From: Methanospirillum hungatei JF-1
GTDB taxonomy: Archaea; Halobacteriota; Methanomicrobia; Methanomicrobiales; Methanospirillaceae
NCBI RefSeq assembly: GCF_000013445.1
Contig: NC_007796.1
Span: 966,936 to 1,030,935 of the forward strand
Direction of reading: 5' to 3'
DNA: 64,000 nucleotides
Part shown: piece by piece, positions 1-15,938 of the stretch
Numbering within the stretch: the stretch's first letter is position 1
Layout: every line of letters begins with the position of its first letter
Translations under genes and position numbers: made by a program
The notes under the pieces: generated by a model
Databases searched by the model: none
What the model saw: the letters and a program-made list of their open reading frames with translations, nothing else
Told to the model about the DNA's origin: nothing

Positions 1-110
1 CGGAGAGACTGAATTCATGGAGAGATGAAAGGAAGAGCCTGCTTCGAATTATCATAGGAGTTATCATGCTTATTATGGGGATAATCATCCTGATGGATGT
101 ATTTCTCTAA
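1..110 (+). CDS. C-terminal end of a membrane protein (partial, 5' end outside window)
   Basis: An open frame enters from the left edge and stops with TAA at 108-110. The visible tail (about 36 residues) has charged residues around WRDERK followed by one strongly hydrophobic segment rich in Ile, Met and Leu, which is a last transmembrane helix. The next gene encodes an exported thioredoxin-fold protein, so a CcdA-like thiol-transporting membrane protein would fit. That is inference from position only, as too little sequence is present to assign a family. Confidence 0.5.
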   Translation, partial: ERLNSWRDERKSLLRIIIGVIMLIMGIIILMDVFL

Positions 111-139: not shown

Positions 140-598
140 ATGCATATGGAAAAGATTGAACGTGGTATGTACAGTCTGATTCTTCTCGTAAATTTGGTAA
201 TTCTCATGCTCATCCCGGCATGCTCGGGAGCGATATTTCAAAAGGACGGGACTGAAATCACGCGAGATGAAGTTACGAAAATATTTACACATAATTCAAT
301 TTTTCATGAAAATTCTCCCATCCAGATACAATTCTTTTATAGTTCCGGTTGTGGCAGCTGTAAAGATGTACTTCAGTTCCTTCAATCATATGAACGGAAA
401 AATCCTTCTGTCCTGATCGAATTCCGGAATCTTGTATATGATGAAGAGAACCGTCAATTATTTACCGAATATAAAAACCAGTTCAATTATTCGAAAATAT
501 CGTATCCTGCATTATTTATCGGTGATATCGGAATAACAGGAAGCAGTGACATTATTCATATAACTGATTCGGTGGTAAAAGGGTATCAGAATCTATGA
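140..598 (+). CDS. Exported thioredoxin-fold protein (CGSC motif)
   Basis: The 152-residue protein has an N-terminal hydrophobic segment (about residues 10-31) that acts as a signal peptide or anchor, followed by a thioredoxin-like domain. The redox motif GCGSC sits near residue 70, and the segment ending YPALFIGD carries the cis-proline typical of the fold. It is paralogous to the protein at 7592-8113 and to the broken copy near 10100-10372, sharing the order GAIF..DG, CxxC, xxFxxYKxxF, cis-Pro, IG. It probably works outside the membrane as a thiol:disulfide or metal(loid)-linked redox protein. The gene lies 29 bp after the truncated membrane-protein gene, suggesting one operon. The substrate is unknown. 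Confidence 0.75.
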   Translation: MHMEKIERGMYSLILLVNLVILMLIPACSGAIFQKDGTEITRDEVTKIFTHNSIFHENSPIQIQFFYSSGCGSCKDVLQFLQSYERKNPSVLIEFRNLVYDEENRQLFTEYKNQFNYSKISYPALFIGDIGITGSSDIIHITDSVVKGYQNL

Positions 599-664: not shown

Positions 665-1168
665 TCATTGTTCGTATATTGTCATTCTATCAATGATTGC
701 TCTGGATAACTCCTCTCCAAATGCCTTTTTATCGCTGAGTTTATACCAGAGTTGTATCTGGTTCTCTGCATGAAATCCGGTATCATCTATATATCCAATC
801 ATCACCGAAGACGAGGTCGTCCCGAACCTGGAGACAATGTCTGCATTCTCCGGGAGGTCAACATTCACATGTCTGAAAATGATCTTCCCTTCATCAATTT
901 CCTGCATGAATGATTTATTCATGGCCTCTTCAGTACGTTCTCCAAGCACCCGGCAGGGATAACATTGATGGGTTTCATGGAAATGATATACTTCTAGTGC
1001 TTTTGGAGGGAGGATAAATAATGATGAACTATTATGTTGAAGAGAGAGATTTTCAAGGGTAAATATCTGGTTGCATCCGCATCCGCCTGACAGGATCATA
1101 ATGGAGGTAATTACAGCAAGTAGCAGAAGAGGGATGAGGATATCTTTTCTCGGACCTTGAATAGGCAT
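665..1168 (-). CDS. ArsF-like thioredoxin-fold lipoprotein (copy 1)
   Basis: The 167-residue protein has a lipoprotein-type signal peptide ending LSGGC near residue 30, then an exported thioredoxin-like domain. Landmarks are VYHFHETHQCYPCRVLGE (CxxC), a segment IIFRHVNVDLPEN, and SSSVMIGY. These match the family annotated as ArsF-like, named after the ArsF subunit of the ArsEFG system acting on nitro/amino-aromatic arsenicals. Two paralogues follow at 8121-8588 and 9512-9997. The gene lies 36 bp downstream of the DGC gene that starts at 1561, so it probably ends the long minus-strand operon. The family name comes from recall and the biochemical role here is inferred. Confidence 0.7.
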   Translation of the reverse strand: MPIQGPRKDILIPLLLLAVITSIMILSGGCGCNQIFTLENLSLQHNSSSLFILPPKALEVYHFHETHQCYPCRVLGERTEEAMNKSFMQEIDEGKIIFRHVNVDLPENADIVSRFGTTSSSVMIGYIDDTGFHAENQIQLWYKLSDKKAFGEELSRAIIDRMTIYEQ

Positions 1169-1204
1169 TGATAAAAAAATAAGAGACTATCGCCGGAGGA
1201 AGGT

Positions 1205-1561
1205 TCACCGGAGTTTTTCCCTCACAACAGATGTCAAAAGTTCAATCTCGTCAAATCGCGGATCTTCCATACCATTCTTTACAATACCACACTCAGTGGC
1301 AATGACATGAATGTCCGGATCATACCCATGCTCCTTAAGTTTTTTCCTCCCGCAGCAGTCAGAACATCCATCAATAATAACTATTCTCTTTGCATGGGCG
1401 AGAACATCACGTAATTTTTCTGGATCACTTCGTGCAGCAAGAGAACATTCAATTATACCCGGACATCTCCGGTGGAGCGCATCACTTACCTTTGTCGTAA
1501 GTTTGCCCGTATTGGATATTCCTGAGCAGGTCACCAAAGCAGTGTCAGAATCCAGGTGCAT
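1205..1561 (-). CDS. DGC-domain putative zinc-binding protein
   Basis: The 118-residue protein contains the sequence IDGCSDCCGRK near residue 75, the hallmark of DGC-domain proteins (a family with conserved cysteines thought to bind metal). Further cysteines occur in VTCSGISNTGK at the N-terminus and ATECGI near residue 90, matching the family pattern of a Cys at the end of the first strand followed by a glycine turn. It is a shorter paralogue of the next upstream gene (1571-2026), from which it is separated by 9 bp, so the two are co-transcribed. The precise activity of the family is not established. Confidence 0.75.
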   Translation of the reverse strand: MHLDSDTALVTCSGISNTGKLTTKVSDALHRRCPGIIECSLAARSDPEKLRDVLAHAKRIVIIDGCSDCCGRKKLKEHGYDPDIHVIATECGIVKNGMEDPRFDEIELLTSVVREKLR

Positions 1562-1570
1562 AAAAAATGA

Positions 1571-2026
1571 TTAGGAGCAGTTACCGCTGCAGCCACACCC
1601 GCCGGAAGGAACCTTCTTTTCAGAATTAGATTCCTGGATTTTTCCTTCTCCTTTCCAGGCGGCAGAGACAATAGACTCAACCTGTTCTTTTGTAAAAGAT
1701 CGGTCAGAGGAATTTTTCTCGATACCAAGATCGGTTACAACCAGATGCTGATGAACCGGAACTCCCGCTTGCTCAGCTATCTTTCGTGCACAATCCATCC
1801 CACATCCGTCAATAGCAACGACTTCATGTACATTCCGTGCACGTTCAGCCAGAGACTCTGATCCAGATGCCAGCAGGGCCGTGCATACAAAGCTGCCATA
1901 TCCTTCGTCAGATAGCTGAATAGCAGCCTGATTTGATATCTGCCCGGTATTTGCCTGCCCGGAGCAGGGAAAAATCAATCGGTTCTTCTCGTTACTTCCA
2001 CAGGTACAGGGGGCTTGCTCTCCCAT
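1571..2026 (-). CDS. DGC-domain putative zinc-binding protein with Cys-rich ends
   Basis: The 151-residue protein shows the DGC signature AIDGCGMDCARK near residue 72 and FPCSGQANTG near residue 20. It adds cysteine-rich extensions absent from its neighbour: CTCGS at the N-terminus and GGCGCSGNCS at the C-terminus. The start codon overlaps the stop of the upstream thioredoxin gene (TAATG at 2026), implying translational coupling. Paired DGC genes next to a small thioredoxin and an ArsP-type permease suggest handling of a soft metal or metalloid; this is inference. Confidence 0.78.
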   Translation of the reverse strand: MGEQAPCTCGSNEKNRLIFPCSGQANTGQISNQAAIQLSDEGYGSFVCTALLASGSESLAERARNVHEVVAIDGCGMDCARKIAEQAGVPVHQHLVVTDLGIEKNSSDRSFTKEQVESIVSAAWKGEGKIQESNSEKKVPSGGCGCSGNCS

Positions 2027-2265
2027 TATGCATTCTCCTTGATGATTTCGATAATCTCATTAACAGTGGGAACCCGACCGGCAACAACTTCTTCGCCGTC
2101 CAGGAACAGAGACGGAGTCATCATGACACCCCTGCTTACAATCTCTTCCAGTGCTTCAACTTTCGTTACTTCAGCCAGAACACCTGATTTTTTTACCGCT
2201 TCAGTTACATTATCATACATACGTTTGCATTTCGTACAGCCGGTTCCTAACACTTCGAGTTTCAT
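2026..2265 (-). CDS. Small thioredoxin/glutaredoxin-like protein (MTH895 type)
   Basis: The 79-residue cytoplasmic protein is one compact thioredoxin fold. The active site GTGCTKCKRM begins at residue 7, and MTPSLFLDGE near residue 49 gives the cis-proline loop. Length and motif match the archaeal MTH895/TM0996 family of small redox-active disulfide proteins. It is followed without gap by a DGC gene and preceded by a DUF169 gene, inside the operon driven from the 4.8-kb promoter. It probably supplies reducing equivalents to one of its neighbours. Confidence 0.85.
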   Translation of the reverse strand: MKLEVLGTGCTKCKRMYDNVTEAVKKSGVLAEVTKVEALEEIVSRGVMMTPSLFLDGEEVVAGRVPTVNEIIEIIKENA

Positions 2266-2316
2266 ATTTCACCTTTATTTGAAACAGTTATGTTCTCTAT
2301 GAATATCATCTTTTGT

Positions 2317-3087
2317 TTAGAGCGAGGCACACCCTGTCCCGGCATGATCCTTTGTAAATGCACCGAATGCGTGTTTCTCCCGTGAATGGGGTAGGGCTTT
2401 CTTTGCCAGGTATTCAAGATGGGAAACCATCGCAGCAAGATCATCAGCCGGGAACCCGATGATCGCTTCCCCAGACCCCATATCCGTTGCATCCCGGCAG
2501 CCATAGCATCCAAGTCCATAATTCAACCGGTTTTCAAGGAACGGAATAATGCAGGAGTCAACACAGGTAGCCTGCAGGATAGCGGTAGAACCCTGGACCC
2601 GTTTTCCCCCGTGGGCATGGAGATAGGAAAGGGCAATCCACATGAGTCTCTCAGGTTCATCTTCGATGATGATAATATCAGGCACCTCATCAGCAGAATC
2701 CAGAGGGAAGATTTTAAGCTGCCTGACAGAATCCAGGGGCAGAATAGTCATCCCTTCAAACATATGCTGGGCAACCTTCTCATCTGAAACAATTCCAAAG
2801 CCAACCAGGCCTTTACCGGTCCGGAGCGGTTCAGGAAGCGGTTTGAACCCGAACGCACGGGCAGCAGCCGGACAGGTAATATTTTCCTCGGTGATGATAC
2901 TTTTTTCTCCATACCGAGCCCGCATTAATGCCTGGCAAAACCGCATTGGTGTCTGATCTCCGGCAAATGGGGGTGCACCGGGAGCCTGAACAATTTTTAC
3001 TCCAATCGGTGATCCCTTTAGCGCAAGGATCAAGCTGAGGGTCAACGCTTCAGTTCGTATTTTTTCAGGGGTTGTTGTGTGTGTCAT
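2317..3087 (-). CDS. DUF169 family protein
   Basis: I place the start at 3087 (about 256 residues, beginning MTHTTTPEKIR), where the DUF169-like part begins; the frame stays open to 3189 and no candidate start has a clear ribosome binding site. Family-like features are LKGSPIGVKIV near the N-terminus, MRFCQALMRAR, a central IEDEPERLMW, and the Cys-containing segment QATCVDSCIIPF followed by YGLGCYGCRD. DUF169 proteins are widespread in methanogens and clostridia and have no proven function; the conserved cysteines hint at metal or cofactor binding. A second member lies at 40005-40718. It belongs to the redox/permease operon. Confidence 0.75.
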   Translation of the reverse strand: MTHTTTPEKIRTEALTLSLILALKGSPIGVKIVQAPGAPPFAGDQTPMRFCQALMRARYGEKSIITEENITCPAAARAFGFKPLPEPLRTGKGLVGFGIVSDEKVAQHMFEGMTILPLDSVRQLKIFPLDSADEVPDIIIIEDEPERLMWIALSYLHAHGGKRVQGSTAILQATCVDSCIIPFLENRLNYGLGCYGCRDATDMGSGEAIIGFPADDLAAMVSHLEYLAKKALPHSREKHAFGAFTKDHAGTGCASL

Positions 3088-3200
3088 AGTATCACAAAAA
3101 ATGTTGAGAGGAATTCTTGCAGATCTCATGAGCGTAAACTGGTGCATTCGAAGAATGGGGATCAGGCTATGAGATACTGCAGGTTTCATACACTCATGTA

Positions 3201-3449
3201 TCAGAATTTATTGTACTCCGCAACAATCGCGTTCGCATACATCTCCTCAGCCCCTTTAGAGATGTAATTGTATACCTTCACCTTCTTGAGAAGAGTTTCT
3301 TTGATCTGCTGCTCAGAAGTAAGTTTCATCTCTTTTACCTCAGCGATTATCTCATCCAGCATGGTAATACCGGTTGGGATACCGTTTACCGGGATCATCC
3401 GAATCCTCCGGAGTGCATCCGCCGGACAACAGGGTTTATCTGCAGCCAT
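3201..3449 (-). CDS. Small CCP-motif protein of unknown function
   Basis: The 82-residue soluble protein begins MAADKPCCPADALRR, continues with a short turn-rich segment VNGIPTGITMLDEI and ends in a charged helical region with KVKVYNYISKG. The N-terminal CCP followed by an Ile/Gly-rich pattern resembles small proteins that accompany ArsP-type permeases in methanogens, but I know no function. It lies 5 bp downstream of the permease gene in the same operon. The cysteine pair could bind a soft metal. Confidence 0.6.
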   Translation of the reverse strand: MAADKPCCPADALRRIRMIPVNGIPTGITMLDEIIAEVKEMKLTSEQQIKETLLKKVKVYNYISKGAEEMYANAIVAEYNKF

Positions 3450-3454
3450 TCAAA

Positions 3455-4534
3455 TCAGAGCCCACTGTTTCCGAATACGAATCCGGCGAGGGTTGAGAAT
3501 ATAACGACCAGAACAGCATACACTCCGGTTTTCTTAGCTCCCATAACCCGGGTGAGAACCAGAAGACTTGGCAGACTTATCGATGGTCCGGTCAGGAGAA
3601 GAGAGAGAGCCGGTCCTTTTGCCATGTTCCCGGAAAGGTAGCCAAGAGTTGTCCCGATCACCGGTACTTCAAGCAGGGTAGGCATGTAGAGTATTGCTCC
3701 GATAACTGCAGCCGTAAAGTTTGCCAGGAGAGAATTGTCACCAATGTATGGCTTAAATGTCTCCGGTGGGATAAAGTAGGAAAGCACCCCGAGAGCAAAG
3801 GTTCCGATAACGAGGATGGGAAAGATCTTTTTGGTCAGATCCCAGATTTCGTATCCCCATTCGGTTACCTCATCTCTGCTGAAATAGTAGATGAGCAGGA
3901 ATGCAACCGCCATGGAGAGGAAGTAGACAATTAGAAGCCGGATAAAGATATCCAGTTGAGATGTTCCGACCAACAGGATTGCAATCAGAAAGATAAAAAA
4001 TGCCGGGATAATCCATTTGGGTCGTTCTTCTCCACCTGAAGAAAGACGGGGGTTCTTTTTTGCATTTGCACGGATTTCATTATCATGCTCTTTGAAAATT
4101 ATTGCCATGATAAGGCCGATGACAATTGACAGAAGAATGGCAGAGACAGCACGGGCAATTCCAATATCAAGACCAAGGACTTTCGCCGAATATACTATTG
4201 CAAGGATATTGATTGCCGGACCGGCATAGAGGAATGTGATTGCCGGACCTATGCCACTTCCTTTTTTAAGAATTCCGGCAAACATTGGCAGTATGGTACA
4301 ACTACAGACTGCTAGAACGGTTCCGGATACCGATGCAATGCCATAACTCACCGATTTCTTTGCATCAGGGCTGAAGTATTTCAGGATAGCATCCTTTTTG
4401 ACAAATGCAGCTATGCCACCGGCAATAAAAAAAGCCGGGATAAGGCACGTGACAACATGCTCGGAGAGATATGCAACGAGGGTTGTCCATCCCAGAAGTA
4501 ATGCTCCGGTAATTATTTCTATCATTGGTATCAC
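3455..4534 (-). CDS. ArsP/DUF318-type permease
   Basis: The 359-residue integral membrane protein has about eight to ten hydrophobic segments. Between the first and second pairs lies VCSCTILPMFAGILKKG with a conserved Cys-x-Cys, followed by FLYAGPAINILAIVYS, the signature of the DUF318 permease family. Characterised members (ArsP) export trivalent organoarsenicals, and others are linked to copper/zinc efflux. A cytoplasmic loop near residues 150-165 is basic and acidic. The start ATG overlaps the stop of the upstream 62-residue gene. Substrate is not determinable from sequence; island context favours metalloid export. Confidence 0.82.
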   Translation of the reverse strand: MIPMIEIITGALLLGWTTLVAYLSEHVVTCLIPAFFIAGGIAAFVKKDAILKYFSPDAKKSVSYGIASVSGTVLAVCSCTILPMFAGILKKGSGIGPAITFLYAGPAINILAIVYSAKVLGLDIGIARAVSAILLSIVIGLIMAIIFKEHDNEIRANAKKNPRLSSGGEERPKWIIPAFFIFLIAILLVGTSQLDIFIRLLIVYFLSMAVAFLLIYYFSRDEVTEWGYEIWDLTKKIFPILVIGTFALGVLSYFIPPETFKPYIGDNSLLANFTAAVIGAILYMPTLLEVPVIGTTLGYLSGNMAKGPALSLLLTGPSISLPSLLVLTRVMGAKKTGVYAVLVVIFSTLAGFVFGNSGL

Positions 4535-4719
4535 TGATTCTCAATTATCTTTTGATCATCTTGTTCTTTTTGAAGAACGCAGCAGTAGGGGCAACATCCA
4601 CCACGCACGGACATTCTTCGCATGATAAGCATCATCAGGAGCATGATAATTGCACAGACAACCACTATCCCAATAATGTAATAAATGGGAAATCCAAAGA
4701 ATGGCATTATAAATGGCAT
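4531..4719 (-). CDS. Small single-span membrane protein with CCPYCC motif
   Basis: The 62-residue protein has a hydrophobic helix at about residues 8-33 followed by a basic stretch and RGGCCPYCCVLQKE, a dense cysteine cluster placed on the cytoplasmic side if the positive-inside rule holds. It is the first gene of the minus-strand operon, overlapping the permease start by 4 bp. A role as a metal-binding or regulatory subunit of the permease is plausible. An internal ATG at 4707 is an alternative start. Confidence 0.6.
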   Translation of the reverse strand: MPFIMPFFGFPIYYIIGIVVVCAIIMLLMMLIMRRMSVRGGCCPYCCVLQKEQDDQKIIENQ

Positions 4720-4762
4720 GATTTGTTCATCTCAAATGATCTCTGATATTTCATCAGAATGT

Positions 4763-4778
4763 TTCAACATTTATTGAA
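4763..4778. promoter_or_regulatory. Putative ArsR operator TTCAA-N6-TTGAA (permease operon)
   Basis: A perfect inverted repeat TTCAACATTTATTGAA lies just downstream of a TATA-like element at 4792-4799 and about 45 bp upstream of the first operon ORF, covering the expected transcription start. The same motif occurs at 8718-8733 and 13006-13021. Operators of this form are typical for ArsR/SmtB repressors, and an ArsR gene lies at 13146-13550. Confidence 0.6.
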
Positions 4779-4791
4779 GTGGATCTTTGAA

Positions 4792-4799
4792 CTATATAA
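4792..4799 (-). promoter_or_regulatory. TATA box of the permease/DGC operon
   Basis: Read on the minus strand this is TTATATAG, embedded in AT-rich DNA and placed about 75 bp before the 4719 start codon. An archaeal start of transcription 25 bp on would fall near 4768, inside the putative operator. Confidence 0.5.
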
Positions 4800-4879
4800 C
4801 AATAGCTATTTTAAATAATTTTGGAATATCTGCGCGTAAATAAGAAATTCTTTTCAAAATAATAACAATATTTAATGAT

Positions 4880-5293
4880 ATCTGTGGTGCCGGAGCCCTC
4901 GGATAAGTCATCATGAGTTCATCATTTGCAGAAGATGCACTCCTCTTATCTCTCAAACACCGGCAATTTTGCTCATGCTGACCCCATTTATCCTTGCGGC
5001 CCTTGTCCAGATGGCACAGGAATAACATATCGTAACTGCGTCAACAACCGCCATCCTCCTTGCTGGAACCAGTATTCCAGCACTGATGAACCCTCTGACG
5101 TTGTTTTCATTCATCATAGCCGGAGCCGGAGTGATATGTTTTGTCACTGATCCCTAGTTTCTGACTGCTTCATGGGAAACCGGCGATGAAGTAAAAAAGA
5201 TTTTTACGTACTATACACTTCCCCAGATTCTTATTGGGATTACTACATGTATTCTGGCGGTTATGAAACAGATACTCTTCCCGATATCACTTT
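4880..5293 (+). pseudogene. Remnant of a GntP-family permease (C-terminal part)
   Basis: Translating the plus strand gives pieces of one protein interrupted by TAA after GAGALG (near 4905), a frameshift near 4955, TAA after QMAQE (near 5025) and TAG after CFVTDP (near 5157). The pieces GAGALG, LAALVQMAQE, VTASTTAILLAGTS and IAGAGVICFVTDP correspond in order to the last third of GntP-type gluconate/organic acid permeases, including the HVNDPxFW-like region. No intact reading frame remains. It occupies the gap between two divergent gene sets and shows that the island has lost genes. Confidence 0.6.
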
Positions 5294-5334
5294 AATAATT
5301 CGTTGACAAAAATACCAGGAATGGCAAAAAATGA

Positions 5335-5469
5335 TTATTCTTTCGCTTCTTTCTTCTCTTTAGATGAACAGCAGGAACCTTCTTTTGGAACAATCTTCGG
5401 ACCACAGCAACAACAAGATGAATCTTTTTTACCGAATATGCGTTCCATGAAACTTTTCTTCTCAGCCAT
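5335..5469 (-). CDS. 44-residue cysteine-rich mini-protein (CCCC motif)
   Basis: The frame runs from ATG at 5467-5469 to TAA at 5335-5337. It begins MAEKKSFMERIFGKKD, continues SSCCCCGPKIV and ends with SCCSSKEKKEAKE. Six cysteines in two clusters within a highly charged, soluble peptide suggest a metal-binding or metallochaperone-like protein. The amphipathic start (FMERIFGKK) looks like a short membrane-associating helix. I recall similar tiny proteins next to ArsP-type permeases in other methanogens, but cannot check. A larger overlapping frame on the same strand is a shadow: its product is merely basic. Confidence 0.5.
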   Translation of the reverse strand: MAEKKSFMERIFGKKDSSCCCCGPKIVPKEGSCCSSKEKKEAKE

Positions 5470-5971
5470 GTATAGTAATGTATCGTAAGCACCTAAAATT
5501 TTATGGAATCTCCTTGATTCATGGCTATCCAGATTGTCAGATCCAATCCTCGATATCTCATCTCAAAATTATTTCTAAGGTTCTTAGATATCCATAATTA
5601 TTTAGAATACGATCAGAATACACATTTGTTTTAATTCACACCTTGAGAACTTTGATAGTTCAAACAAATATGAAATAGATACTTATAAATAACGAACAAA
5701 TCAATAGATATTTTGGTTTTTAAACTTCTGAAGGAATTATCGTGGCTCTCTGTCAATGGTGTATGGGCTGGGGTGCTGATCCACCTGTTCTTTTCTGAAT
5801 TGTAACAATCCGGAGATTTCCGGTTAGGTAATGCATTGCAGATCTACGAAATCGTATCTTTAGATATCATGTCATTGTATGTAACGTCTTTAGGGCCTCT
5901 ATTTTGTGCCCATACAAGCGATAGCTCACTGAATAGAGAACTGAATAGTCTATTAACTGGTGGAGATGACC
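5470..5971. other. Intergenic region upstream of second ArsP-like permease
   Basis: About 500 bp without a conventional gene. It contains the palindrome GAACT-N5-AGTTC at 5647-5661, a near match to the ArsR motif (TTCAA-N6-ATGAA, 5659-5674), a TATA box CTTATAAATA at 5682-5691, and a 19-codon GTG frame at 5742-5798 with a good ribosome binding site. The last 170 bp before the permease show nothing further that I recognise. Confidence 0.4.
5742..5798 (+). CDS. Possible 18-residue leader or micro-protein with CxxC
   Basis: A GTG codon is preceded by AAGGA at 6-bp spacing and lies about 50 bp after a TATA box. The product would be M-ALCQWCMGWGADPPVLF, with a CQWC pair. The arrangement looks like a genuine translation unit, either a regulatory leader peptide for the downstream permease (start 174 bp later) or a remnant of a longer gene. 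There is no homology evidence. Confidence 0.25.
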   Translation: MALCQWCMGWGADPPVLF

Positions 5972-6898
5972 ATGACTGCCATCAATGATCTCTTCACCGC
6001 GGGTCAGTTTTTTCTCATTATAACTGTTGAACTGGTTATTTTATTTATCGGGATCAGTTTCCTGGTCGGTCTGATTCGGGAATACGTACCGGAGGAAAAT
6101 ATACGAAATGTTCTGACAAGTAAGCACCGAGGAGTGGGAAATATTTTCGGGGCATTTTTTGGGGCACTTACCCCTTTCTGTTCCTGTTCAACCATCCCTA
6201 TCCTGGTTGGACTGCTTGATGTCGGGGTTCCATTCGGAATTACATATTCATTCCTTATTGCGTCACCTCTCTTAAATCCGGTCATTTTTTTTCTTATTCT
6301 GGCACTCTTTGGCGTTGTGCCAACACTGATCTATACCATTATCACATTTTCTATCGCCGTTATCTCGGGTATCCTCCTCGAACGTGCCGGATATGGCAGG
6401 TATGTGAAAGCAGTAACATTGGAGAAGGGATGTTGCTGTAAAGGTGAATATTCCGAAAATTCAGTGCATAAAACCCAGTTTTCCCGGGCACTCACCTTTG
6501 TCTTCACCCTATTCAGGCAGATTGTCCCATATCTGATTCTTGGTGCTGCAATAGGAGCCTTTATTTATGGTTTTATTCCAGAGGAACTCATTGTAGCCGC
6601 CGCAGGACCTGACAACCCACTTGCAATCCCGGTCGCAGCGGTCATCGGGGTACCGATGTATATCCGGGCTGAAACGATCATCCCCATAAGTGCCGTCCTT
6701 CTTGAAAAGGGTATGGGAATCGGTGCGGTGATGGCACTTATTATTGGCGGTGCCGGGGCAAGTATCCCGGAAGTTACGCTTCTTGCCTCTATCTTTGAAA
6801 AAAGACTGGTTGCAGCATTCGTGGTCACGGTCCTCGGGGTTGCAGTCCTTGCCGGAGTGTTGTTCCAGGTACTCTCGAATATGGGAATTCTCATCTGA
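5972..6898 (+). CDS. ArsP/DUF318-type permease (second copy)
   Basis: The protein of about 308 residues has two bundles of hydrophobic helices separated by a cytoplasmic loop carrying KGCCCKGE near residue 155. The signature TPFCSCSTIPILVGLL lies near residue 68 and is mirrored by the second-half motif VPMYIRAETIIPI, as in ArsP-type organoarsenical exporters and related permeases. Start choice: GGTGGAG at 5959-5965 places ATG 5972 at ideal spacing, although the frame is open from GTG 5960. The protein differs clearly from the permease at 3455-4534, so it is an independent family member rather than a recent duplicate. The loop cysteines may sense or bind the exported metal(loid). Confidence 0.82.
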   Translation: MTAINDLFTAGQFFLIITVELVILFIGISFLVGLIREYVPEENIRNVLTSKHRGVGNIFGAFFGALTPFCSCSTIPILVGLLDVGVPFGITYSFLIASPLLNPVIFFLILALFGVVPTLIYTIITFSIAVISGILLERAGYGRYVKAVTLEKGCCCKGEYSENSVHKTQFSRALTFVFTLFRQIVPYLILGAAIGAFIYGFIPEELIVAAAGPDNPLAIPVAAVIGVPMYIRAETIIPISAVLLEKGMGIGAVMALIIGGAGASIPEVTLLASIFEKRLVAAFVVTVLGVAVLAGVLFQVLSNMGILI

Positions 6899-6960
6899 AG
6901 AGAGAAAAAACAGAATAGTTCTGGTTTTCAAAAATTTTATAAATTTTCATGAAAGAAGGG

Positions 6961-7533
6961 TTAATATACGCACTCAACTTTACCTTCAAGGACCTTCCCT
7001 TTACAACAGGTTTCAGTTTTTGGACTATAACACGTATCACCACAAGCAGTGAACCCTTTTCCATCATACACTTCACCAAGACAACAAGACTGATTTTTCG
7101 TATTATAACACGTGTCACCGCAGATCTGCCATCCGAACCCATCATAGATCTGGTTATTACAGCAACTCTGACTGGTCAAATCATAACAGACTCCCCCGCA
7201 TACACCCCAGAGTAGTCCGTCTTTTGGTTCACCAAGGCAACATGATTGATTAGTGGGAGTATAAAACGAATTACCACAAGTCGGAAGACACCGGCTTCCA
7301 TTCACCACGATTGTGTTACAACAGACCTGGCTTTCCATATTGTAGCAGGTATCCCCGCATACTCCAAAATGAAGACCGTCGTATACCTGCCCCTGACAGC
7401 ACGATTGTTTACTGGGATCATAACAAGTGTCACCACAGGGCACACATACTGGTTTAGCGCCAAATGCTGATATCGATAACACCAATACACAGATGAAAAT
7501 CAAACCGGCGATGGTAAGAGAGAACCGCTGCAA
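6961..7533 (-). CDS. Secreted protein of six galaxin-like Cys-rich repeats
   Basis: The 190-residue protein has a signal peptide (hydrophobic residues 6-24, cleavage around AFGA) and then six tandem repeats of about 26 residues. The consensus is CGDTCYxxxxQSCCxGxVYDGxxxxx, each with a CG, a Cys-Tyr and a CC pair; repeat 2 and repeat 3 deviate most. The pattern resembles galaxin repeats of eukaryotic biomineral and host-symbiont proteins. With around thirty cysteines and no other domain, it is likely a disulfide-rested surface protein or a metal-binding protein outside the cell. It lies downstream of and convergent with the ArsP-like permease, in a neighbourhood full of exported thioredoxin-like proteins that could shape its disulfides. 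Confidence 0.75.
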   Translation of the reverse strand: MQRFSLTIAGLIFICVLVLSISAFGAKPVCVPCGDTCYDPSKQSCCQGQVYDGLHFGVCGDTCYNMESQVCCNTIVVNGSRCLPTCGNSFYTPTNQSCCLGEPKDGLLWGVCGGVCYDLTSQSCCNNQIYDGFGWQICGDTCYNTKNQSCCLGEVYDGKGFTACGDTCYSPKTETCCKGKVLEGKVECVY

Positions 7534-7591
7534 ATCCTATGATACCGTTTCAGGATCTGAATAAGTTTCTTCTAGAGGGATAATCTGAAAA

Positions 7592-8113
7592 TTAAAAGAG
7601 TTTGAGATTTCTGAACAATGTAAAAAAATTGGATAAAAATCCTTGACTTTCATGCATATTCTGCTGAAGTTCTAATATTTCTCCCAGGTGATTGCTGATA
7701 TCCTGAGTCCCTTCAAGGGTAAGATTTCCTATCATCATGGAAGGTACAGACAGGTGGGTTCGGTGATATGTTGTTTTATACTGTTCGAATATCGTCCGAT
7801 TTTCCGGGCTGTTATAGAGATCATAATCCAATAGTTTCATCTCCGGGTGTTCTGGTATGAACTCATCCAGAAAATCCCATGCCATATGGCAACCGCCACA
7901 ATGAGTATTCCAGAAGAAGATAACTGTTCCCGGAGGGAGATCACCTCCAATCAGGGATGAATCTGACCGTATGAGATCAGATAATAATTCTGAATCAATT
8001 TCACTTCCATTTATCGAAAATATAGCTGCAGATACCGGTGCAATACAAAAGGCAAGAACAAGTCCCAGAAAGACAAGGGAAAAAAATTGGTTTAGAGATG
8101 ATGAATGAACCAT
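7592..8113 (-). CDS. Exported thioredoxin-fold protein (CGGC motif)
   Basis: The 173-residue protein has a signal peptide (residues 9-30, ending PVSA) followed by a thioredoxin-like domain. FFWNTHCGGCHMAWDFL near residue 67 carries the CxxC, and LSVPSMMIGN near residue 122 holds the cis-proline. It is a paralogue of the protein at 140-598. Its start lies 7 bp after the stop of the ArsF-like gene at 8121-8588, so both are co-transcribed from the promoter near 8740. It probably exchanges electrons with its ArsF-like partner on the outer face of the membrane; the final acceptor is unknown. Confidence 0.75.
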   Translation of the reverse strand: MVHSSSLNQFFSLVFLGLVLAFCIAPVSAAIFSINGSEIDSELLSDLIRSDSSLIGGDLPPGTVIFFWNTHCGGCHMAWDFLDEFIPEHPEMKLLDYDLYNSPENRTIFEQYKTTYHRTHLSVPSMMIGNLTLEGTQDISNHLGEILELQQNMHESQGFLSNFFTLFRNLKLF

Positions 8114-8120
8114 CGTACCC

Positions 8121-8588
8121 TTAATTCATATTACCTGAAAGTCTCTTTTCTATCAGGTCTTTCAGATATGCTTCATATTCATCAGGATTTCCAAGTTTGT
8201 ACCAGACTCTGGTATCTTCTTCGGCCTTAAACCCGTCAGGAGTGTATACCCCAATCATGAGAGATGATCCGGATGCACCATATCTATTTGTTATCTCCTT
8301 ATCTTTTGGATCATCGACGGTTACATGGCCAAATACTAATTTTCCGGATTCAAGTTCATCTGCAAAGTTTTTATTCACCGTCTGTTCTGCAAGTTCTCCA
8401 AGACGGATACAACTGTAACACTGGTGTTTTAAGTGAAAATGATAGACTTCCACTTTTTCAACTGCTGAAGAACCACCATCTGTTGTTTCTGATGCTGAAC
8501 AGGTAAGGATGGCTGTACAGAGAAATAAAACAGCAGTAATAATAATGATAAAGGCAAATTTTCTAGATCTGGCGTTTAAATTACTCAT
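8121..8588 (-). CDS. ArsF-like thioredoxin-fold exported protein (copy 2)
   Basis: The 155-residue protein has a membrane segment (residues 11-30), a Ser/Thr-rich linker, then VEVYHFHLKHQCYSC near residue 48, VFGHVTVDDPKD, and ASGSSLMIGVYT with the conserved serine pair. It is closely related to the copy at 9512-9997 and less so to 665-1168. The family is annotated as subunit ArsF of the nitro-aromatic arsenical system. It has its own promoter with an ArsR-like operator at 8718-8733 and precedes the CGGC thioredoxin gene. Confidence 0.75.
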   Translation of the reverse strand: MSNLNARSRKFAFIIIITAVLFLCTAILTCSASETTDGGSSAVEKVEVYHFHLKHQCYSCIRLGELAEQTVNKNFADELESGKLVFGHVTVDDPKDKEITNRYGASGSSLMIGVYTPDGFKAEEDTRVWYKLGNPDEYEAYLKDLIEKRLSGNMN

Positions 8589-8717
8589 GCGTTAACTCCT
8601 TCAATACGTGGAAATTGAAAAATTTCAGATGAGATATCTGATGAGGAAGACAGATGTGAAGACATCCAATATTCTAAGAACAGGGAATATTTTCTGTGAA
8701 CTCTCATCTGACTAAGT

Positions 8718-8733
8718 TTCAATATATTTTGAA
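8718..8733. promoter_or_regulatory. Putative ArsR operator TTCAA-N6-TTGAA (ArsF-like gene)
   Basis: TTCAATATATTTTGAA is a perfect inverted repeat next to a minus-strand TATA-like run (ATTATATATATG, about 8735-8746). It lies about 130 bp before the ArsF-like start at 8588 and downstream of the ArsG-like stop, so it marks a separate transcription unit. The same motif occurs upstream of the 4719 operon and of the ACR3 gene. Confidence 0.6.
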
Positions 8734-8786
8734 TCATATATATAATTTCCGGAAAAAGAGAGATTTTTTCCTCATAATTGCAATAA

Positions 8787-9515
8787 TTACAGAAGATATG
8801 CCTGTACTGTATAGTATGCCCCAATAATAATGAAGAGTACAGCAACAGCTCGACGGAATATCTTTTCTGCTGTCTGAACCTTGTTCATCATTGCTCCACA
8901 TCTGCCAACACCGGTGGAGAGAAGAGCTGCAAAAATGATAACAGGAAGACCGGTTGCCAGACCAAAAACGAGCGGGACACCTATCGGATCCTGAACGCTT
9001 AATGCAAGCGGGACCAGCATACCAAAGAAGAGGACTGCACTAAACGGACAGAAACTGAGTGCAAACAAAATTCCCAGGAGAAAACTTCCGAAAAAGCCTT
9101 TGTCTAAAAATTTTTTTGATAATTTTTCTTTCAGCTCTGAAAGGCCTTCATGCTCAAATTTCATGCTGAGAGGAATTACTTCGAGCATGAGAATACCACA
9201 GATCAAGAGTATCGGTCCTAACAGGAGATCACCGTACTCTTGGAGGAAGAGCGAAATGGACTGTACTTTCAGGCCACCAAGGACAATAAGTGCTGCAATG
9301 GCAACATACACAAGAACACGGCCGATTGTGTAGAGAGAGCCTACGAATAAGGTATACTTTCCGGATGAGAGATTTCGGGAGATATAGGCGATAGCAGTGA
9401 TATTCGTAGCCAGCGGACAGGGACTAATCGCCATCATAAGCCCAATGAAAAAGGCAGCTACAAGAGGAATATCGCTACTTCCCATCGCTTCCATGAAAGA
9501 CATCAGATCGCTCAA
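8787..9515 (-). CDS. CcdA/DsbD-like membrane protein, ArsG family
   Basis: The 242-residue protein has six or so transmembrane helices. Two cysteines sit in the paired motifs AISPCPLATN (near residue 33) and ALSFCPFSAVLF (near residue 153), the arrangement of CcdA/DsbD transmembrane thiol-disulfide carriers. The version with CPLA and CPFSA next to an ArsF-like gene matches the ArsG family, described as an efflux permease for aromatic aminoarsenicals. It overlaps the upstream ArsF-like gene (9512-9997) by 4 bp. It could either carry electrons outward to the thioredoxin-fold lipoproteins or export an arsenical; the sequence alone cannot separate these. Confidence 0.78.
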   Translation of the reverse strand: MSDLMSFMEAMGSSDIPLVAAFFIGLMMAISPCPLATNITAIAYISRNLSSGKYTLFVGSLYTIGRVLVYVAIAALIVLGGLKVQSISLFLQEYGDLLLGPILLICGILMLEVIPLSMKFEHEGLSELKEKLSKKFLDKGFFGSFLLGILFALSFCPFSAVLFFGMLVPLALSVQDPIGVPLVFGLATGLPVIIFAALLSTGVGRCGAMMNKVQTAEKIFRRAVAVLFIIIGAYYTVQAYLL

Positions 9516-9997
9516 GATTGACCTCCCTTTAAAATTGGATCCAGTATTCCAGTCAGGTAATCAGAATATTCTTCTTCATTTCCAAGCCTGTACCAGAGAC
9601 CAACCAGATCCTGTTTGGTAAATGAGTCTTTCGTGTATACCCCAATCATGAGTGAAGAAGAGACCACTTCATATTTTTGTGCAAGATAGCGGTTTGCCGG
9701 ATCCTCTGCATTGATATGACCAAATACTAGTTTTCCTGATGCGAGTTCATCCGGGTAGTTCTTTTTTACTACTTTCTCTGCTAAGTCTCCGAGAAGTACA
9801 CAGGAATAACACTGCTGATTTCCATGGAAATGGTAGAGTTCAACCTTGGTAATATCCGGCAACGCAGCATCATTCGGTACTTCATTTTTCACCGACGATT
9901 CATTATCCAGACTGGTTCCGGTACATCCTGCGAAGAGAGTGAGAAACAGAGCACACAAAATAAGTGCTCCGGTTATCTTAAGATGATTTTGTTTCAT
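9512..9997 (-). CDS. ArsF-like thioredoxin-fold lipoprotein (copy 3)
   Basis: The 161-residue protein has a lipoprotein signal with a lipobox LFAGC at residues 21-25, a linker, then VELYHFHGNQQCYSCVLLGD (CxxC near residue 65), LVFGHINAEDP and SSSLMIGVYT. It ends with an amphipathic helix. It is most similar to the copy at 8121-8588 (shared QCYSC, GHxxxxDP, SLMIGVYT, WYxLGNxxEY). It is translationally coupled to the ArsG-like gene, giving the fG arrangement known from ArsEFG loci, but no ArsE partner is visible. Confidence 0.78.
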   Translation of the reverse strand: MKQNHLKITGALILCALFLTLFAGCTGTSLDNESSVKNEVPNDAALPDITKVELYHFHGNQQCYSCVLLGDLAEKVVKKNYPDELASGKLVFGHINAEDPANRYLAQKYEVVSSSLMIGVYTKDSFTKQDLVGLWYRLGNEEEYSDYLTGILDPILKGGQS

Positions 9998-10099: not shown

Positions 10100-10372
10100 A
10101 AAACATAGGTTGTGCTGGTGTATGCTATTTCGCGAGAAATCAGGATATTTCCGTTTCATTTTATGATCTGTACAACAGTTCTTTGAACAATATACTGTTT
10201 ACCGAGTATAAGACGAAATTTAACGATAATATCTATATACATTATCCAGCGGTTTTCATTGGGGATAATGTACTGTAGGTTCTTTTGACATTGCGTCATA
10301 TACAGAAATATTCACGAAATGGTATCAGGAAAAAAGGAATACAGAAGCGGTATCCGGATTTTTCCCGGTATA
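10100..10372 (+). pseudogene. Remnant of a thioredoxin-fold gene (140-598 family)
   Basis: Translation gives GCAGVCYF, then SFYDLYNSSLNNILFTEYKTKFN and YPAVFIGDN before a stop; after a frameshift it resumes with GSFDIASYTEIFTKWYQ. These pieces align in order with the protein at 140-598 (LFTEYK, YPALFIGD, GSSDI). The start and the normal CxxC spacing are lost. It is a third, decayed member of this exported thioredoxin-like family in the island. Confidence 0.6.
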
Positions 10373-10391: not shown

Positions 10392-10960
10392 ATGAGAATT
10401 ATAAGCCGACCATTTTGGTTATCTGTACTCATCACTCTGCCCGTCACAGATAGCCGAGGGGTATATCAGGAACTGGTACGGAGATCGGTATACCGTATAT
10501 AGCGCAGGAACAGATGTAACCAGCGTCCATCCTCTTGCCGTTAAAGTAATGAAAGAAATTGGTATAGAAATATCTCATCATCGATCAAAACCACTCTTTG
10601 AATTTCTTGATACAGATGAGGCTGTTGCATAACTTCAAACAGTTAGTACAATGAGGAAAAACCAGATTTTTTTCGAGGATTTAAGCTCCAATCGGATGGA
10701 AATTGTCCTATTGCAGAAATGACATTTTGGTTATGCAACAGTCTCTGATATTGATATTATTATAACGGTCTGCAATGGGGCAAAGGCAGTCTGTCCGGTT
10801 TTCCCGGAGCGAGGCGAACCATCCATCAGGGATTTACTAATACATTAAAAGTCACGAGTTCGGATGAAGTGAAATTGGCAATATTCCGGACTTTCCGGTA
10901 TGAAATTACCCCGTTGATATATGACATTGTAAATCCTGGCGGAGCACTGACTTGGTTATT
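10392..10960 (+). pseudogene. arsC pseudogene interrupted by an inverted-repeat element
   Basis: The region is clearly homologous to the intact arsC at 13666-14097, at DNA and protein level: VICTHHSAR, GDRYTVYSAGT, SHHRSKPLFEFLDTD, then TVCNGAKAVCPVFP and VNPGGAL. A one-base loss after the active-site region causes a frameshift near 10445, a further frameshift follows the VCPVFP segment, and a 128-bp element with terminal inverted repeats separates DTD from DIDIIITV. The copy cannot make arsenate reductase. It lies directly before the DUF166 gene. Confidence 0.8.
10618..10745. mobile_element. 128-bp MITE-like element inserted in arsC pseudogene
   Basis: The left end GAGGCTGTTGCATAAC and the right end GTTATGCAACAGTCTC are inverted repeats with 15 of 16 matching bases. 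Comparison with the intact arsC shows that the flanking codons (DTD / DID) are otherwise continuous, so the segment is an insertion, possibly flanked by a GAT duplication. It encodes no transposase, as expected for a miniature element moved in trans. The TGTTGCA core recalls ends of IS5- and IS6-like elements. Confidence 0.7.
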
Positions 10961-11787: not shown

Positions 11788-12990
11788 TTAAGACCTCAAC
11801 TGGAACCATCCTCTGGTCCGAAGACACATATTTACAAGGGTAAGCATTGTCGGGACTTCTATAAGCACTCCGACCACCGTTGCAAGGGCTGCTCCTGAAG
11901 AAAGACCAAAAAGGATGGTTGCCGTAGCAATAGCAACCTCAAAATGGTTGGATGCCCCAATCATGGCAGTAGGGGCGGCATCTTCATACGAGAATTTCCA
12001 TGCTTTTGAAAGGATATATCCTAAAGAAAAGATGAGTATTGTCTGAATAAAAAGTGGAATTGCAATCCAGAGAATCGTGAGAGGATCATTCAGGATGACC
12101 TCTCCCTTAAAACTGAAGAGCAAGATCAATGTGACTAACAGAGCGATAATAGTCACCGGGGTGAGAAGATGCATGAATTTTGTCTTAAACCATTCTTCTC
12201 CTTTATATTTGATGAGAAGAATTCGGGATAGATATCCACAGATAAGGGGAAGAGCAACATAAATTGCGATTGATAATGCCAAAGCCTCCCATGGCACCGG
12301 GAGCTGTCCAACACCGAGAAGGAATCCTCCAAGAGGGCCGTATAGGACGAGCATCGAAAGGGAGTTTATTGCGACCATGACCAAAGTATGACCGTCATTT
12401 CCTCTCGCCAGATATCCCCAGACCAGAACCATTGCCGTACAGGGGGCGATGCCAAGCAGAATACACCCAGCAAGGTAACTCCTCCAGAGGGGAATTTCCA
12501 GCATCTTTACCCCATTCTCCAGGACTACGGTTCCATCTCCGTATGTGGCCCCAACAGGAAGATCCACTCCAAATGGCATCTTCACAAGATCCAATGCATC
12601 TGGACCGATAAACTGAAGAAACAGATACCCAAGAAAAAATGAGGCAATGATATACATGGAGAATGGTTTAATTGCCCAGTTCACAAAGAGGGTCAGAGTT
12701 ACAGGTTTGATATTCCTCCCAGCTTTGAGTACTTCGGCAAAGTCGATCTTTACCATAATGGGATACATCATAAAAAACAGACAGAGGGCAATAGGGATAG
12801 ATATGACAGGAGCTTCTCCGATATAAATGGAAAGGCCATCAAGGTACTGTGCTCCATGTGGTGCAAACCGGCCCAGGAGAATTCCAAGGGCGATACAGAT
12901 CAAAACCCAGATGGTGAGATACTTTTCAAAAAAGCCAAGACCTTTTGATTTGTGTGGGGGATTCGGGAATGCCTGTTCTGTGTTACTCAT
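11788..12990 (-). CDS. acr3: ACR3-family arsenite efflux transporter
   Basis: The protein of 400 residues has ten transmembrane helices. Diagnostic segments are [16 protein letters not shown] with [33 protein letters not shown] with the essential cysteine, and [17 protein letters not shown]. These are hallmark sequences of ACR3 arsenite pumps, which expel As(III) using the membrane potential. I choose ATG 12990 (MSNTEQAF) rather than TTG 12999. A TTCAA-N6-TTGAA operator lies 16 bp upstream, and ArsR is encoded directly upstream in the same orientation. Together with ArsC this forms a complete arsenate resistance set. Confidence 0.95.
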
Positions 12991-13005
12991 GATACACAAT
13001 TGTGA

Positions 13006-13145: not shown

Positions 13146-13550
13146 TTAAGGTCTTTTTTTCTTCTCTTCTGAACAGAGAGACAATGCTTTTACTCCGAGA
13201 TCAGTCAGTTCATAAATGATATAGTTACCTTGGGATGTTCCTTCAATCAACCCCATCGAACTTAATTTTTTCAAATGATATGAAAGCCGGGTATCTGATA
13301 TTTTCAGTAACTCCCTGATAATACAGACACAAAGAGGCTGAATTGAAAGCATGGAGAGGATATTTATCCGAAATGGGTCTGATAATGCTTTAAAGAGAGA
13401 GACGTTTTGCATAATCGCATTCCTGGGCATGATTTGGTTTGATAATCCTTCCAGACCACCTATTGTCATCAGAGGTTCCAGAACTTCAGGAGGTATTTTG
13501 GGTGGTATTGCAGGGTCTGCACAATTCGTGCTGCAAGCGGCCTTTTTCAT
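13146..13550 (-). CDS. arsR: ArsR-family metalloregulatory repressor
   Basis: The 134-residue protein has a winged-helix domain from about residue 48. It contains LFKALSDPFRINILSML and then QPLCVCIIRELL, the cysteine pair C74/C76 of the As(III)-sensing ELCVC type motif, followed by the recognition helix region SDTRLSYHLKKLSSMGLI. A non-standard 45-residue N-terminus includes CSTNC, which may supply further metal ligands. It is divergent from arsC and upstream of acr3. It probably represses the island promoters carrying the TTCAA-N6-TTGAA motif. Confidence 0.9.
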   Translation of the reverse strand: MKKAACSTNCADPAIPPKIPPEVLEPLMTIGGLEGLSNQIMPRNAIMQNVSLFKALSDPFRINILSMLSIQPLCVCIIRELLKISDTRLSYHLKKLSSMGLIEGTSQGNYIIYELTDLGVKALSLCSEEKKKRP

Positions 13551-13665: not shown

Positions 13666-14097
13666 ATGCATAAACCGACTGTTTTGTTTATCTGTACCCA
13701 TAACTCCGCCAGATCACAAATGGCCGAAGGATATCTCAAAAACCGATATGGAGATCGGTATACTACATATAGCGCAGGGACTGAAGTTACCCATGTCCAT
13801 CCTCTTGCCATAGAGGTCATGGATGAGATTGGCATTGATATATCACATCATCGTTCAAAACCGCTCCTGGAATTTTTCGATACTGATATTGATTTCGTTG
13901 TTACGGTCTGCGATGGGGCAAAATCAGTCTGTCCGGTTTTTCCCGGAGCAAAGAAGACAATCCATCAGGGCTTTATTGATCCATCTTCAGTGATAGGATC
14001 TGATGAAGAGAAATTATCGGCATTCCGGGCTGTACGGGATGAAATTATTAGATGGATTGACGAGAATGTCAAACCTGGCGGAGTTCTTGTTTTATAA
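13666..14097 (+). CDS. arsC: Arsenate reductase, thioredoxin-coupled LMW phosphatase type
   Basis: The 143-residue protein carries the phosphatase-loop signature CTHNSAR (C10 to R16) and the redox pair C82 and C89 in VTVCDGAKSVCPVFP, which pass electrons from arsenate to thioredoxin in the ArsC family. SHHRSKPL and a conserved Asp near the C-terminal helix complete the fold. It reduces arsenate to arsenite, the substrate of the ACR3 pump. Likely electron donors are the small thioredoxins encoded nearby. A decayed second copy lies at 10392-10960. Confidence 0.93.
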   Translation: MHKPTVLFICTHNSARSQMAEGYLKNRYGDRYTTYSAGTEVTHVHPLAIEVMDEIGIDISHHRSKPLLEFFDTDIDFVVTVCDGAKSVCPVFPGAKKTIHQGFIDPSSVIGSDEEKLSAFRAVRDEIIRWIDENVKPGGVLVL

Positions 14098-14300: not shown

Positions 14301-14609
14301 CTATTTCATACCACAACAAGACCCTGCATCTCCTCCACAACTGCACTCACCACTATCCATATCTCTCCCCCGAAGAGCAGCACTAATCATTGCCCAGGCA
14401 CATCCCACACCACTCTCAACCTCAATTGCCTGAACCGGACAATTCAATGCACATGCACCACACTCCATGCACCGGACTTGATATACAAGATTAACATGAG
14501 ATTTTCCAGCAGAAAACACACCATGAGGGCAAACCTCGGTGCATCGTTTACAGTTGATGCATCTATTCTTATAAAATTTCAAAGAGTTGTCAAGATATGA
14601 ATGAAACAT
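14301..14609 (-). CDS. hgcB: HgcB, 2[4Fe-4S] ferredoxin of mercury methylation
   Basis: The 102-residue protein has two cluster motifs: C17-C20-C23-C27 and C47-C50-C53-C57. Beyond these it has the isolated C70 in SGVGCAWAM and a C-terminal tail with SCSCGG-like residues ending SCCGMK, the terminal cysteine pair typical of HgcB. It reduces the corrinoid of HgcA and may deliver Hg(II). Start ATG overlaps the hgcA stop (TGATG at 14609), preceded by GGAG at 7-bp spacing. An ordinary ferredoxin would lack C70 and the Cys pair at the end. Confidence 0.93.
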   Translation of the reverse strand: MFHSYLDNSLKFYKNRCINCKRCTEVCPHGVFSAGKSHVNLVYQVRCMECGACALNCPVQAIEVESGVGCAWAMISAALRGRDMDSGECSCGGDAGSCCGMK

Positions 14610-15637
14610 CAGATCACTCCTGCTAATCGAAAAATACTAAGAACTATTCCAATGACCGACCCGATACCTGTCATGACAGCCATTATGGGAACATATCTGA
14701 ATATCTCCTTTTTTACCCCAGTTCGTGAAGTATATGGCGTGGACCCGGTAAAATTCAGTCCCAGGTATGCAACAACTGCAGGAATAATCAAAAGAGGGAC
14801 AATTGCTCCTGCAGCCAGTGCCCATTCCGGAAGATCTGCTGATTGTGCATACATCGCCGAGAATGGAACTGCACATACTCCTCCCAGAATAAATCCCTTC
14901 ATTGAGAAGTCCTGAGTCGGGAGATAGGGTAGGAGTATTGGAAAGAGGACAGTACCGGTTATGACAGCAGCGATTGCAGCAACTCCGGCCGCTGGTCCTG
15001 CTAACAACCAAAGAATGATAGAGATAATGATGGTCGGAATGGCAACATGTACCAGTTCTATTGGTATTAATACAAGCCGATCCTGTATAGGAAAGGATAC
15101 CTTACGCATTTCAGAGGTAGCCTTCCCGGTTCTCATATATTCAGGAAGATCAGCAGCCCGTACCGGACCATATTCAACCGTAAACCCGGATCTCTGTTTA
15201 ACCATATGCGCAGATATCCCGGGCGCACCCAATTGTGGGACGATAATATTCCGATGGGAAACAATGTGAGACAGCCCTGTTGATTCAATTCTTTTTACCA
15301 GTTCATCAGTACCAAAGGTCCCTTTTCCTGCTGCACACCAGACATTAATCCCTTTTGTGTCCAGTACAAGGATGTATGCATCAAATCCCTTCAGGTTTAA
15401 TCGAAGAGTATCAAAGCTGATAGTGTAATTTGCAGATGCAAAGACCGGTGAATCAGCATCAGGATTGCCCAATCGATAAAGGCCTGGTCGAACTACATGA
15501 CCTGAGCGTTTATATCCCCATCTGGCCAGGATATGATCAATTCTGTTTGCAATAGTAATATTTGAGTCTGTTTGAGGTATTGAATAAGAACAGGCTGTAT
15601 CCGGTTCTGAACATGAACAACAGCATGATGTTTCCAT
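14609..15637 (-). CDS. hgcA: HgcA, membrane corrinoid protein of mercury methylation
   Basis: The 342-residue protein begins with a Cys-rich tail (METSCCCSCSEP), continues with a corrinoid-binding domain with the cap-helix motif NVWCAAGKG (C101 is the lower cobalt ligand in the family), and ends in about five transmembrane helices from residue 188 on. The motif is diagnostic for HgcA, which transfers a methyl group to Hg(II). Start choice: GGAG in the hgcC end lies 6 bp before ATG 15637; the frame is open to ATG 15655, which overlaps the upstream gene. The source of the methyl group would be methyltetrahydrosarcinapterin in a methanogen. Confidence 0.95.
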   Translation of the reverse strand: METSCCCSCSEPDTACSYSIPQTDSNITIANRIDHILARWGYKRSGHVVRPGLYRLGNPDADSPVFASANYTISFDTLRLNLKGFDAYILVLDTKGINVWCAAGKGTFGTDELVKRIESTGLSHIVSHRNIIVPQLGAPGISAHMVKQRSGFTVEYGPVRAADLPEYMRTGKATSEMRKVSFPIQDRLVLIPIELVHVAIPTIIISIILWLLAGPAAGVAAIAAVITGTVLFPILLPYLPTQDFSMKGFILGGVCAVPFSAMYAQSADLPEWALAAGAIVPLLIIPAVVAYLGLNFTGSTPYTSRTGVKKEIFRYVPIMAVMTGIGSVIGIVLSIFRLAGVI

Positions 15638-15638
15638 G

Positions 15639-15938
15639 TTATGCTCCGGTGTCATTCATGAGTGGAGAGAGGACATCTTTTACCATCCCGCTCAGGTTTT
15701 CTGCCTTCATCAGTGCCATACAACAGATAGTACCTTCTTTCTCCCAACTGATGAGAGCCAGTTTGTCTCCGGGTTTAATATCGGCACGTTCCCTGATATC
15801 TTTTGGTAAGACCATCTGACCCCGTTCATCAATCGTGAGAATGGATTCAACCTTGCATGTCGTCTTCTGGTCACAACTACAGAAATTGCGGTCAGTATGC
15901 TTATCATCTTCCGGTTTTTCTTTGGCCATACTCTTCAT
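15639..15938 (-). CDS. hgcC: HgcAB-associated AbrB-like protein (HgcC)
   Basis: The 99-residue protein has an N-terminal charged region with CSCDQKTTC and then a SpoVT/AbrB swapped-hairpin domain: LTIDERGQMVLPKDIRER followed by IKPGDKLALISW. A C-terminal helical part with ICCMALMKAENLS follows. Proteins of this form are consistently found directly upstream of hgcAB. It could act as a repressor of the operon through the palindrome at 15977-15992, or as a metal-binding partner. Its end overlaps the ribosome binding site of hgcA. Confidence 0.82.
   Translation of the reverse strand: MKSMAKEKPEDDKHTDRNFCSCDQKTTCKVESILTIDERGQMVLPKDIRERADIKPGDKLALISWEKEGTICCMALMKAENLSGMVKDVLSPLMNDTGA

Follow-up and report, generated by a model that had tools for sequence, protein, structure and literature searches.

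A locus in the methanogenic archaeon Methanospirillum hungatei JF-1 is a composite form of the arsEFG module, set within a standard Methanospirillum arsenic-resistance (ars) island and probably acting as a transmembrane dithiol relay. The window analysed is a stretch of 64,000 nucleotides (C1:966936-1030935 of a single 3,544,738-base contig). In the proposed relay, cytosolic ArsE would hand electrons to ArsG, a CcdA-like membrane protein, at its cysteine pair. ArsG would in turn hold the CxxC motif of the exported, membrane-tethered ArsF in the reduced state. The reduced CxxC would then bind a soft metal(loid), most likely As(III) or an organoarsenical and in second place Hg(II), which would arrive with, or leave by, the ArsP/Acr3 permeases. 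The module proteins and the exported thioredoxins beside them are listed here by position in the window.

1-110, forward strand: C-terminal end of an exported thioredoxin-CcdA fusion; the gene starts left of the window (tblastn)
140-598, forward strand: exported thioredoxin-like protein (Trx140), CGSC, cis-proline retained; 30 bp after the fusion
665-1168, reverse strand: ArsF copy 3, lipobox-type, CxxC (NF040494, 94.9 bits)
2026-2265, reverse strand: ArsE, cytosolic, 79 residues, thioredoxin-like (MTH895 family), CxxC and cis-proline (TIGR00412, 94.9 bits)
7592-8113, reverse strand: exported thioredoxin-like protein, CxxC, cis-proline retained; last gene of the ArsF-ArsG-ArsF-thioredoxin run
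8121-8588, reverse strand: ArsF copy 2, exported, CxxC at C57/C60, Ser108 at the cis-proline site (NF040494, 104.6 bits)
8787-9515, reverse strand: ArsG, CcdA/DsbD-type membrane protein, C33 (SPCP) and C156 (CP) (NF040495, 284.5 bits; PF13386, DsbD_2, 6.8e-25)
9512-9997, reverse strand: ArsF copy 1, lipobox-type signal, CxxC at C63/C66 (NF040494, 96.8 bits)

Linkage and conserved residues of ArsE, ArsF and ArsG

The original prediction, made from the letters alone, had named three ArsF-like proteins, a CcdA/ArsG-type membrane protein, two exported CxxC thioredoxin-fold proteins and two ArsP-like permeases. All of these were borne out at the positions given, with ArsF and ArsG above their curated cut-offs (60 for NF040494 and 200 for NF040495) and both permeases matching PF03773 (ArsP_1). 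It had also stated that no ArsE partner was present, which was mistaken: the 79-residue reading frame at 2026-2265 scores well above the TIGR00412 (MTH895/ArsE family) cut-off of 62. Three things come in addition to what had been described: the thioredoxin-CcdA fusion at the left edge, the remainder of the ars island and the adjoining hgcCAB genes for mercury methylation.

We searched for the module in a sample of 394 genomes from the phylum and examined archaeal and bacterial contigs as further sets of loci. ArsG was found above the cut-off in 42 of the phylum genomes and ArsF in 45, including all 42 with ArsG (Fisher P = 2e-53, uncorrected for relatedness). The three genomes with ArsF only comprised one with a split ArsG (G326), one with a divergent ArsG adjacent to ArsF (G065), and one with no ArsG and a frameshifted ArsF (G149). 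ArsF was located directly upstream of ArsG on the same strand in 50/50 phylum loci, 45/47 archaeal-contig loci and 32/33 bacterial-contig loci, and one exception begins at a contig end. The two genes mostly overlapped or were separated by no more than 25 bases. ArsF and ArsG are thus an obligate pair. Among bacterial loci with 5 kb of flank available on both sides, ArsE, ArsR and an ArsP permease accompanied the pair in 16/16. Acr3, DGC proteins and a small 82-residue protein accompanied it in archaeal loci. The family has members in methanogens, DPANN archaea, Bacteroidota and Chloroflexota. Three loci (L095, L098 and L111) carried divergent ArsE-F-G sets, with ArsG motifs (EPCA and YPCS) nearer to those of CcdA; these sets may represent an intermediate branch.

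In the genome lacking ArsG, the ArsF gene (L077:9815-10284, reverse strand) is frameshifted between the signal and the domain. We considered whether a nearby thioredoxin-CcdA fusion had replaced ArsG there in a natural swap and set this aside, as orphan decay or an assembly error would account for the frameshifted gene equally well.

The cysteines of the proposed relay were conserved in each of the three families. For ArsG, a profile search returned the CcdA of Thermus thermophilus (5vkv) as the sole solved relative (E=5.8e-8), with the cysteine motif of the first transmembrane segment aligned. C33 was conserved in 122/122 ArsG sequences and C156 in 119/123, the remaining four having the cysteine shifted by two residues. 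ArsE has no signal, and its CxxC and cis-proline were present in 110/110 sequences. The CxxC of ArsF was present in 128/128 sequences, of which 127 have an N-terminal hydrophobic segment and 70 a lipobox-like site. The AlphaFold model of ArsF copy 2 has a thioredoxin fold, with a mean predicted local distance difference test score (pLDDT) of 89 and about 98 for the domain.

ArsF has the CxxC and fold of classical thioredoxins that reduce protein disulfides and lacks their cis-proline, which precedes the third strand. In a profile alignment, Ser108 stood opposite the cis-proline of the exported thioredoxins, which retain it in 14/14 sequences; at this position ArsF has Ser in 81 sequences, Gln in 32 and Pro in just 2/127. 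According to a review of the thioredoxin fold, the cis-proline probably contributes to the substrate site and may block metal binding by the CxxC (PMC2757866, citing Su et al. 2007). Because ArsF has lost this residue, its sequence suggests that it receives soft metal(loid)s and is not a general disulfide reductase.

The original prediction had placed the exported thioredoxins in the same relay and had taken independent scattering of the families as evidence against it. ArsE, ArsF and ArsG stay together, whereas the thioredoxins at 140 and 7592 and the thioredoxin-CcdA fusion do scatter. The exported thioredoxin/thioredoxin-CcdA family was found in 75/150 genomes of the order, mostly outside ars islands, and was linked to ArsF and ArsG in Methanospirillum only. 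The present genome has at least six single-domain copies and two fusions. The exported thioredoxins were therefore ruled out as core members of the module, being multi-copy and mostly unlinked. The fusion at the left edge (373 residues; C1:965924-967045; L063:15925-17046; window -1012 to 110) consists of an exported thioredoxin (CSSC) and a CcdA-like domain, the latter without a match among the NCBIfam and Pfam models.

The proposed relay weighed against other readings

Since ArsE is predicted in the cytosol, ArsG in the membrane and ArsF outside, all with redox cysteines, a CcdA-type relay is the best fit to the three sequences. This much of the original prediction holds, namely a membrane electron path towards exported thiol (lipo)proteins; its claim of novelty does not. 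ArsR and ArsP are constantly present, joined in archaea by Acr3, which points to arsenic as the concern of the module. As no ArsM scored above the cut-off in the genome, self-made methylarsenicals are unlikely, and arsenic methylation was rejected as the origin of the ArsP permeases' substrate.

The reading behind the family catalogue assigns reduction of the nitro group in nitroaromatic arsenicals to ArsE and ArsF, and export of the resulting aminophenylarsenicals to ArsG. It is backed by the NCBIfam names of NF040494 and NF040495, which reportedly rest on a study of arsEFG from 2019. However, ArsF has a thioredoxin fold and matched no flavin-type nitroreductase family, and its export would put nitro reduction outside the cell, ahead of the export step. 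In addition, ArsG retains the redox cysteines of CcdA, and synthetic nitroaromatic arsenicals do not explain the spread of the module over archaea and bacteria. We consider this reading unlikely.

About as unlikely is a general extracytoplasmic disulfide reduction system of the CcdA/ResA or DsbD-like kind, which would serve protein thiols and lie near ars genes since arsenite poisons exported thiols. The homology of ArsG to CcdA fits such a role, as does the spread of exported thioredoxins and fusions through half the genomes of the order. That general thioredoxin pool, however, is separate from the module, which is itself tied to ArsR and ArsP, and ArsF is without the cis-proline that such reductases use for substrate binding. 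Likewise unlikely is the supply of electrons to a thioredoxin-type ArsC for cytosolic arsenate reduction, as put forward by Castillo & Saier in 2010 (PMC2963123): the ArsC here is of that type, with three cysteines, and ArsE could serve as its cytosolic reductant, but the predictions place ArsF with its CxxC outside the cell, and ArsC was found within 5 kb of ArsG in half of the loci or fewer (14/41, 7/26 and 8/16).

Several observations weigh against the transmembrane relay. The NCBIfam names describe ArsF as a nitroreductase subunit and ArsG as an efflux permease. Castillo & Saier doubted that electrons flow across the membrane, because ArsC is cytosolic (PMC2963123). The AlphaFold model of ArsG is weak (pLDDT 76) and gave no structural match in the PDB, CcdA included, and was not used as evidence. 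Finally, arsE, arsF and arsG are not contiguous here: arsF and arsG are adjacent, and arsE is separated from them by 5.9 kb that hold genes of both strands. ArsE, ArsF and ArsG are contiguous in many relatives, and contiguity, common as it is, is no condition of the family models.

More tentatively, the dithiol relay may hold for ArsEFG across archaea and bacteria. Under this broader proposal, which we hold with less confidence than the reading of the present locus, the module would keep a cis-proline-less ArsF reduced for uptake or hand-over of metal(loid)s at ArsP, rather than form a nitroreductase and a pump, and in methanogens with hgcAB it might also handle Hg(II) or methylmercury. If the relay is correct, the widely used database names (nitroreductase, efflux permease) misdescribe the family, and arsenic resistance has an overlooked extracytoplasmic redox arm.

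The ars island and its neighbours

The ars island reaches 14.1 kb of the window and is abutted by hgcCAB at 14.3-15.9 kb. Its other features are as follows.

1205-1561, reverse strand: DGC-domain Cys-rich protein, a conserved island neighbour (PF08859, 92.7 bits)
1571-2026, reverse strand: DGC-domain Cys-rich protein, a conserved island neighbour (PF08859, 119.9 bits)
2317-3189, reverse strand: DUF169 protein (PF02596, 173.3 bits)
3201-3449, reverse strand: 82-residue protein, conserved beside the permease (neighbourhood comparison)
3455-4534, reverse strand: ArsP-type permease, copy a (PF03773, 241.5 bits)
5960-6898, forward strand: ArsP-type permease, copy b (PF03773, 193 bits)
6961-7533, reverse strand: exported CC-repeat protein, 190 residues (Pfam Galaxin_repeat, 61.6 bits)
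10102-10314, forward strand: relic of another exported thioredoxin-like gene (45% to Trx140 by tblastn)
10400-10949, forward strand: decayed second arsC with frameshifts and stops, beside the thioredoxin remnant
11788-12999, reverse strand: Acr3 arsenite efflux transporter (TIGR00832, 369.8 bits, cut-off 282.8)
13146-13550, reverse strand: ArsR/SmtB metalloregulator (NF033788, 71.4 bits, cut-off 55)
13666-14097, forward strand: thioredoxin-type arsenate reductase ArsC, C10/C82/C89 (TIGR02691, 127.1 bits, below the cut-off of 174.3)
14301-15938, reverse strand: mercury-methylation genes hgcC-hgcA-hgcB, with HgcB at 14301-14609, HgcA at 14609-15655 and HgcC at 15639-15938 (NF040863, NF040864 and NF040962 at 454.3, 113.8 and 129.6 bits, all above cut-off)

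Both permeases score below the cut-offs of two named NCBIfam subfamilies. The 82-residue protein was located directly after an ArsP permease in archaeal islands and in some Dehalococcoidia, and no relative of the Galaxin_repeat protein was seen in other ars islands. A search of Rfam gave no match.

The single-strand run from 9997 to 7592 encodes ArsF, ArsG, ArsF and an exported thioredoxin. ArsF copy 1 and ArsG overlap by 4 bases (TTGA), and 7 bases separate ArsF copy 2 from the thioredoxin gene. The same four-gene order was found in M. stamsii (L064) and in M. hungatei M59 (L113); the present ArsG shares 95% identity with its counterpart in an M. hungatei metagenome-assembled genome and 90% with the one in M. 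stamsii. ArsF copy 3 is the most divergent of the three copies and is sister to the frameshifted ArsF of G149 (tree support 1.0). It stands in a block with ArsE, the two DGC proteins, the 82-residue protein, an ArsP permease and the converging thioredoxin-CcdA fusion, a block that M. stamsii has minus that ArsF and minus Trx140. The island looks like two ars clusters next to each other, a history that fits the decayed arsC and decayed exported thioredoxin at 10.1-10.95 kb. The Methanospirillum module is an arsEFG set enlarged with extra ArsF copies and exported cis-proline thioredoxins. The decayed arsC is split by an element of about 124 bp with inverted ends (10620-10743), which has 18 matches in the genome and resembles a miniature inverted-repeat transposable element.

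The proximity of ars genes to hgcAB has been published previously (PMC7438021). In our sample, 19 genomes had both hgcA and ArsG, and in 5 of these, from three families, the two lay no more than 15 kb apart, against 0.22 expected, a comparison uncorrected for relatedness. Over the phylum, hgcA was enriched in genomes with ArsG (19/42 versus 32/352), but within the family it was not (P = 0.73). A tie between hgcA and ArsG by co-occurrence was therefore rejected, as relatedness accounts for the enrichment; the close linkage in the 5 genomes still exceeds chance. A role of ArsF and ArsG in mercury handling is possible, and with hgcAB as neighbours in a methanogen the module is a candidate for mercury-thiol handling near a mercury methylator.

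Comparison with known systems

The relay gene set is already known, and the present locus is a known system with a larger gene set. The arsEFG genes were reportedly named and tested by Chen, Zhang & Rosen in 2019, with resistance to roxarsone and nitarsone. As in that system, all three families here score above curated cut-offs and ArsF directly precedes ArsG. The locus differs in its separated ArsE, its three ArsF copies instead of one, its extra exported thioredoxins and the mechanism proposed. An exported metal-binding thioredoxin-fold protein that lacks the usual cis-proline and is reduced by a cis-proline thioredoxin is found in relays of the Sco/TlpA type, and ArsF may be analogous to such a protein.

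The redox composition had also been noted earlier, since a set of CcdA, thioredoxin and redox-active disulfide protein 2 was seen in ars operons by Castillo & Saier in 2010 (PMC2963123). Their set and ours share like kinds of protein in ars operons and the idea of electrons crossing the membrane. Theirs was tied to cytosolic ArsC, with transmembrane flow thought unlikely, whereas here ArsF is predicted to be exported and is without cis-proline. What is added here is evidence across families, drawn from sequence comparison, for the probable export of ArsF and for its missing cis-proline. ArsG, lastly, is homologous to T. thermophilus CcdA (5vkv) and to the transmembrane domain of DsbD and retains both membrane cysteines, but differs from them in its second motif, which is C-P and not P-C, and in having a dedicated exported partner, ArsF.

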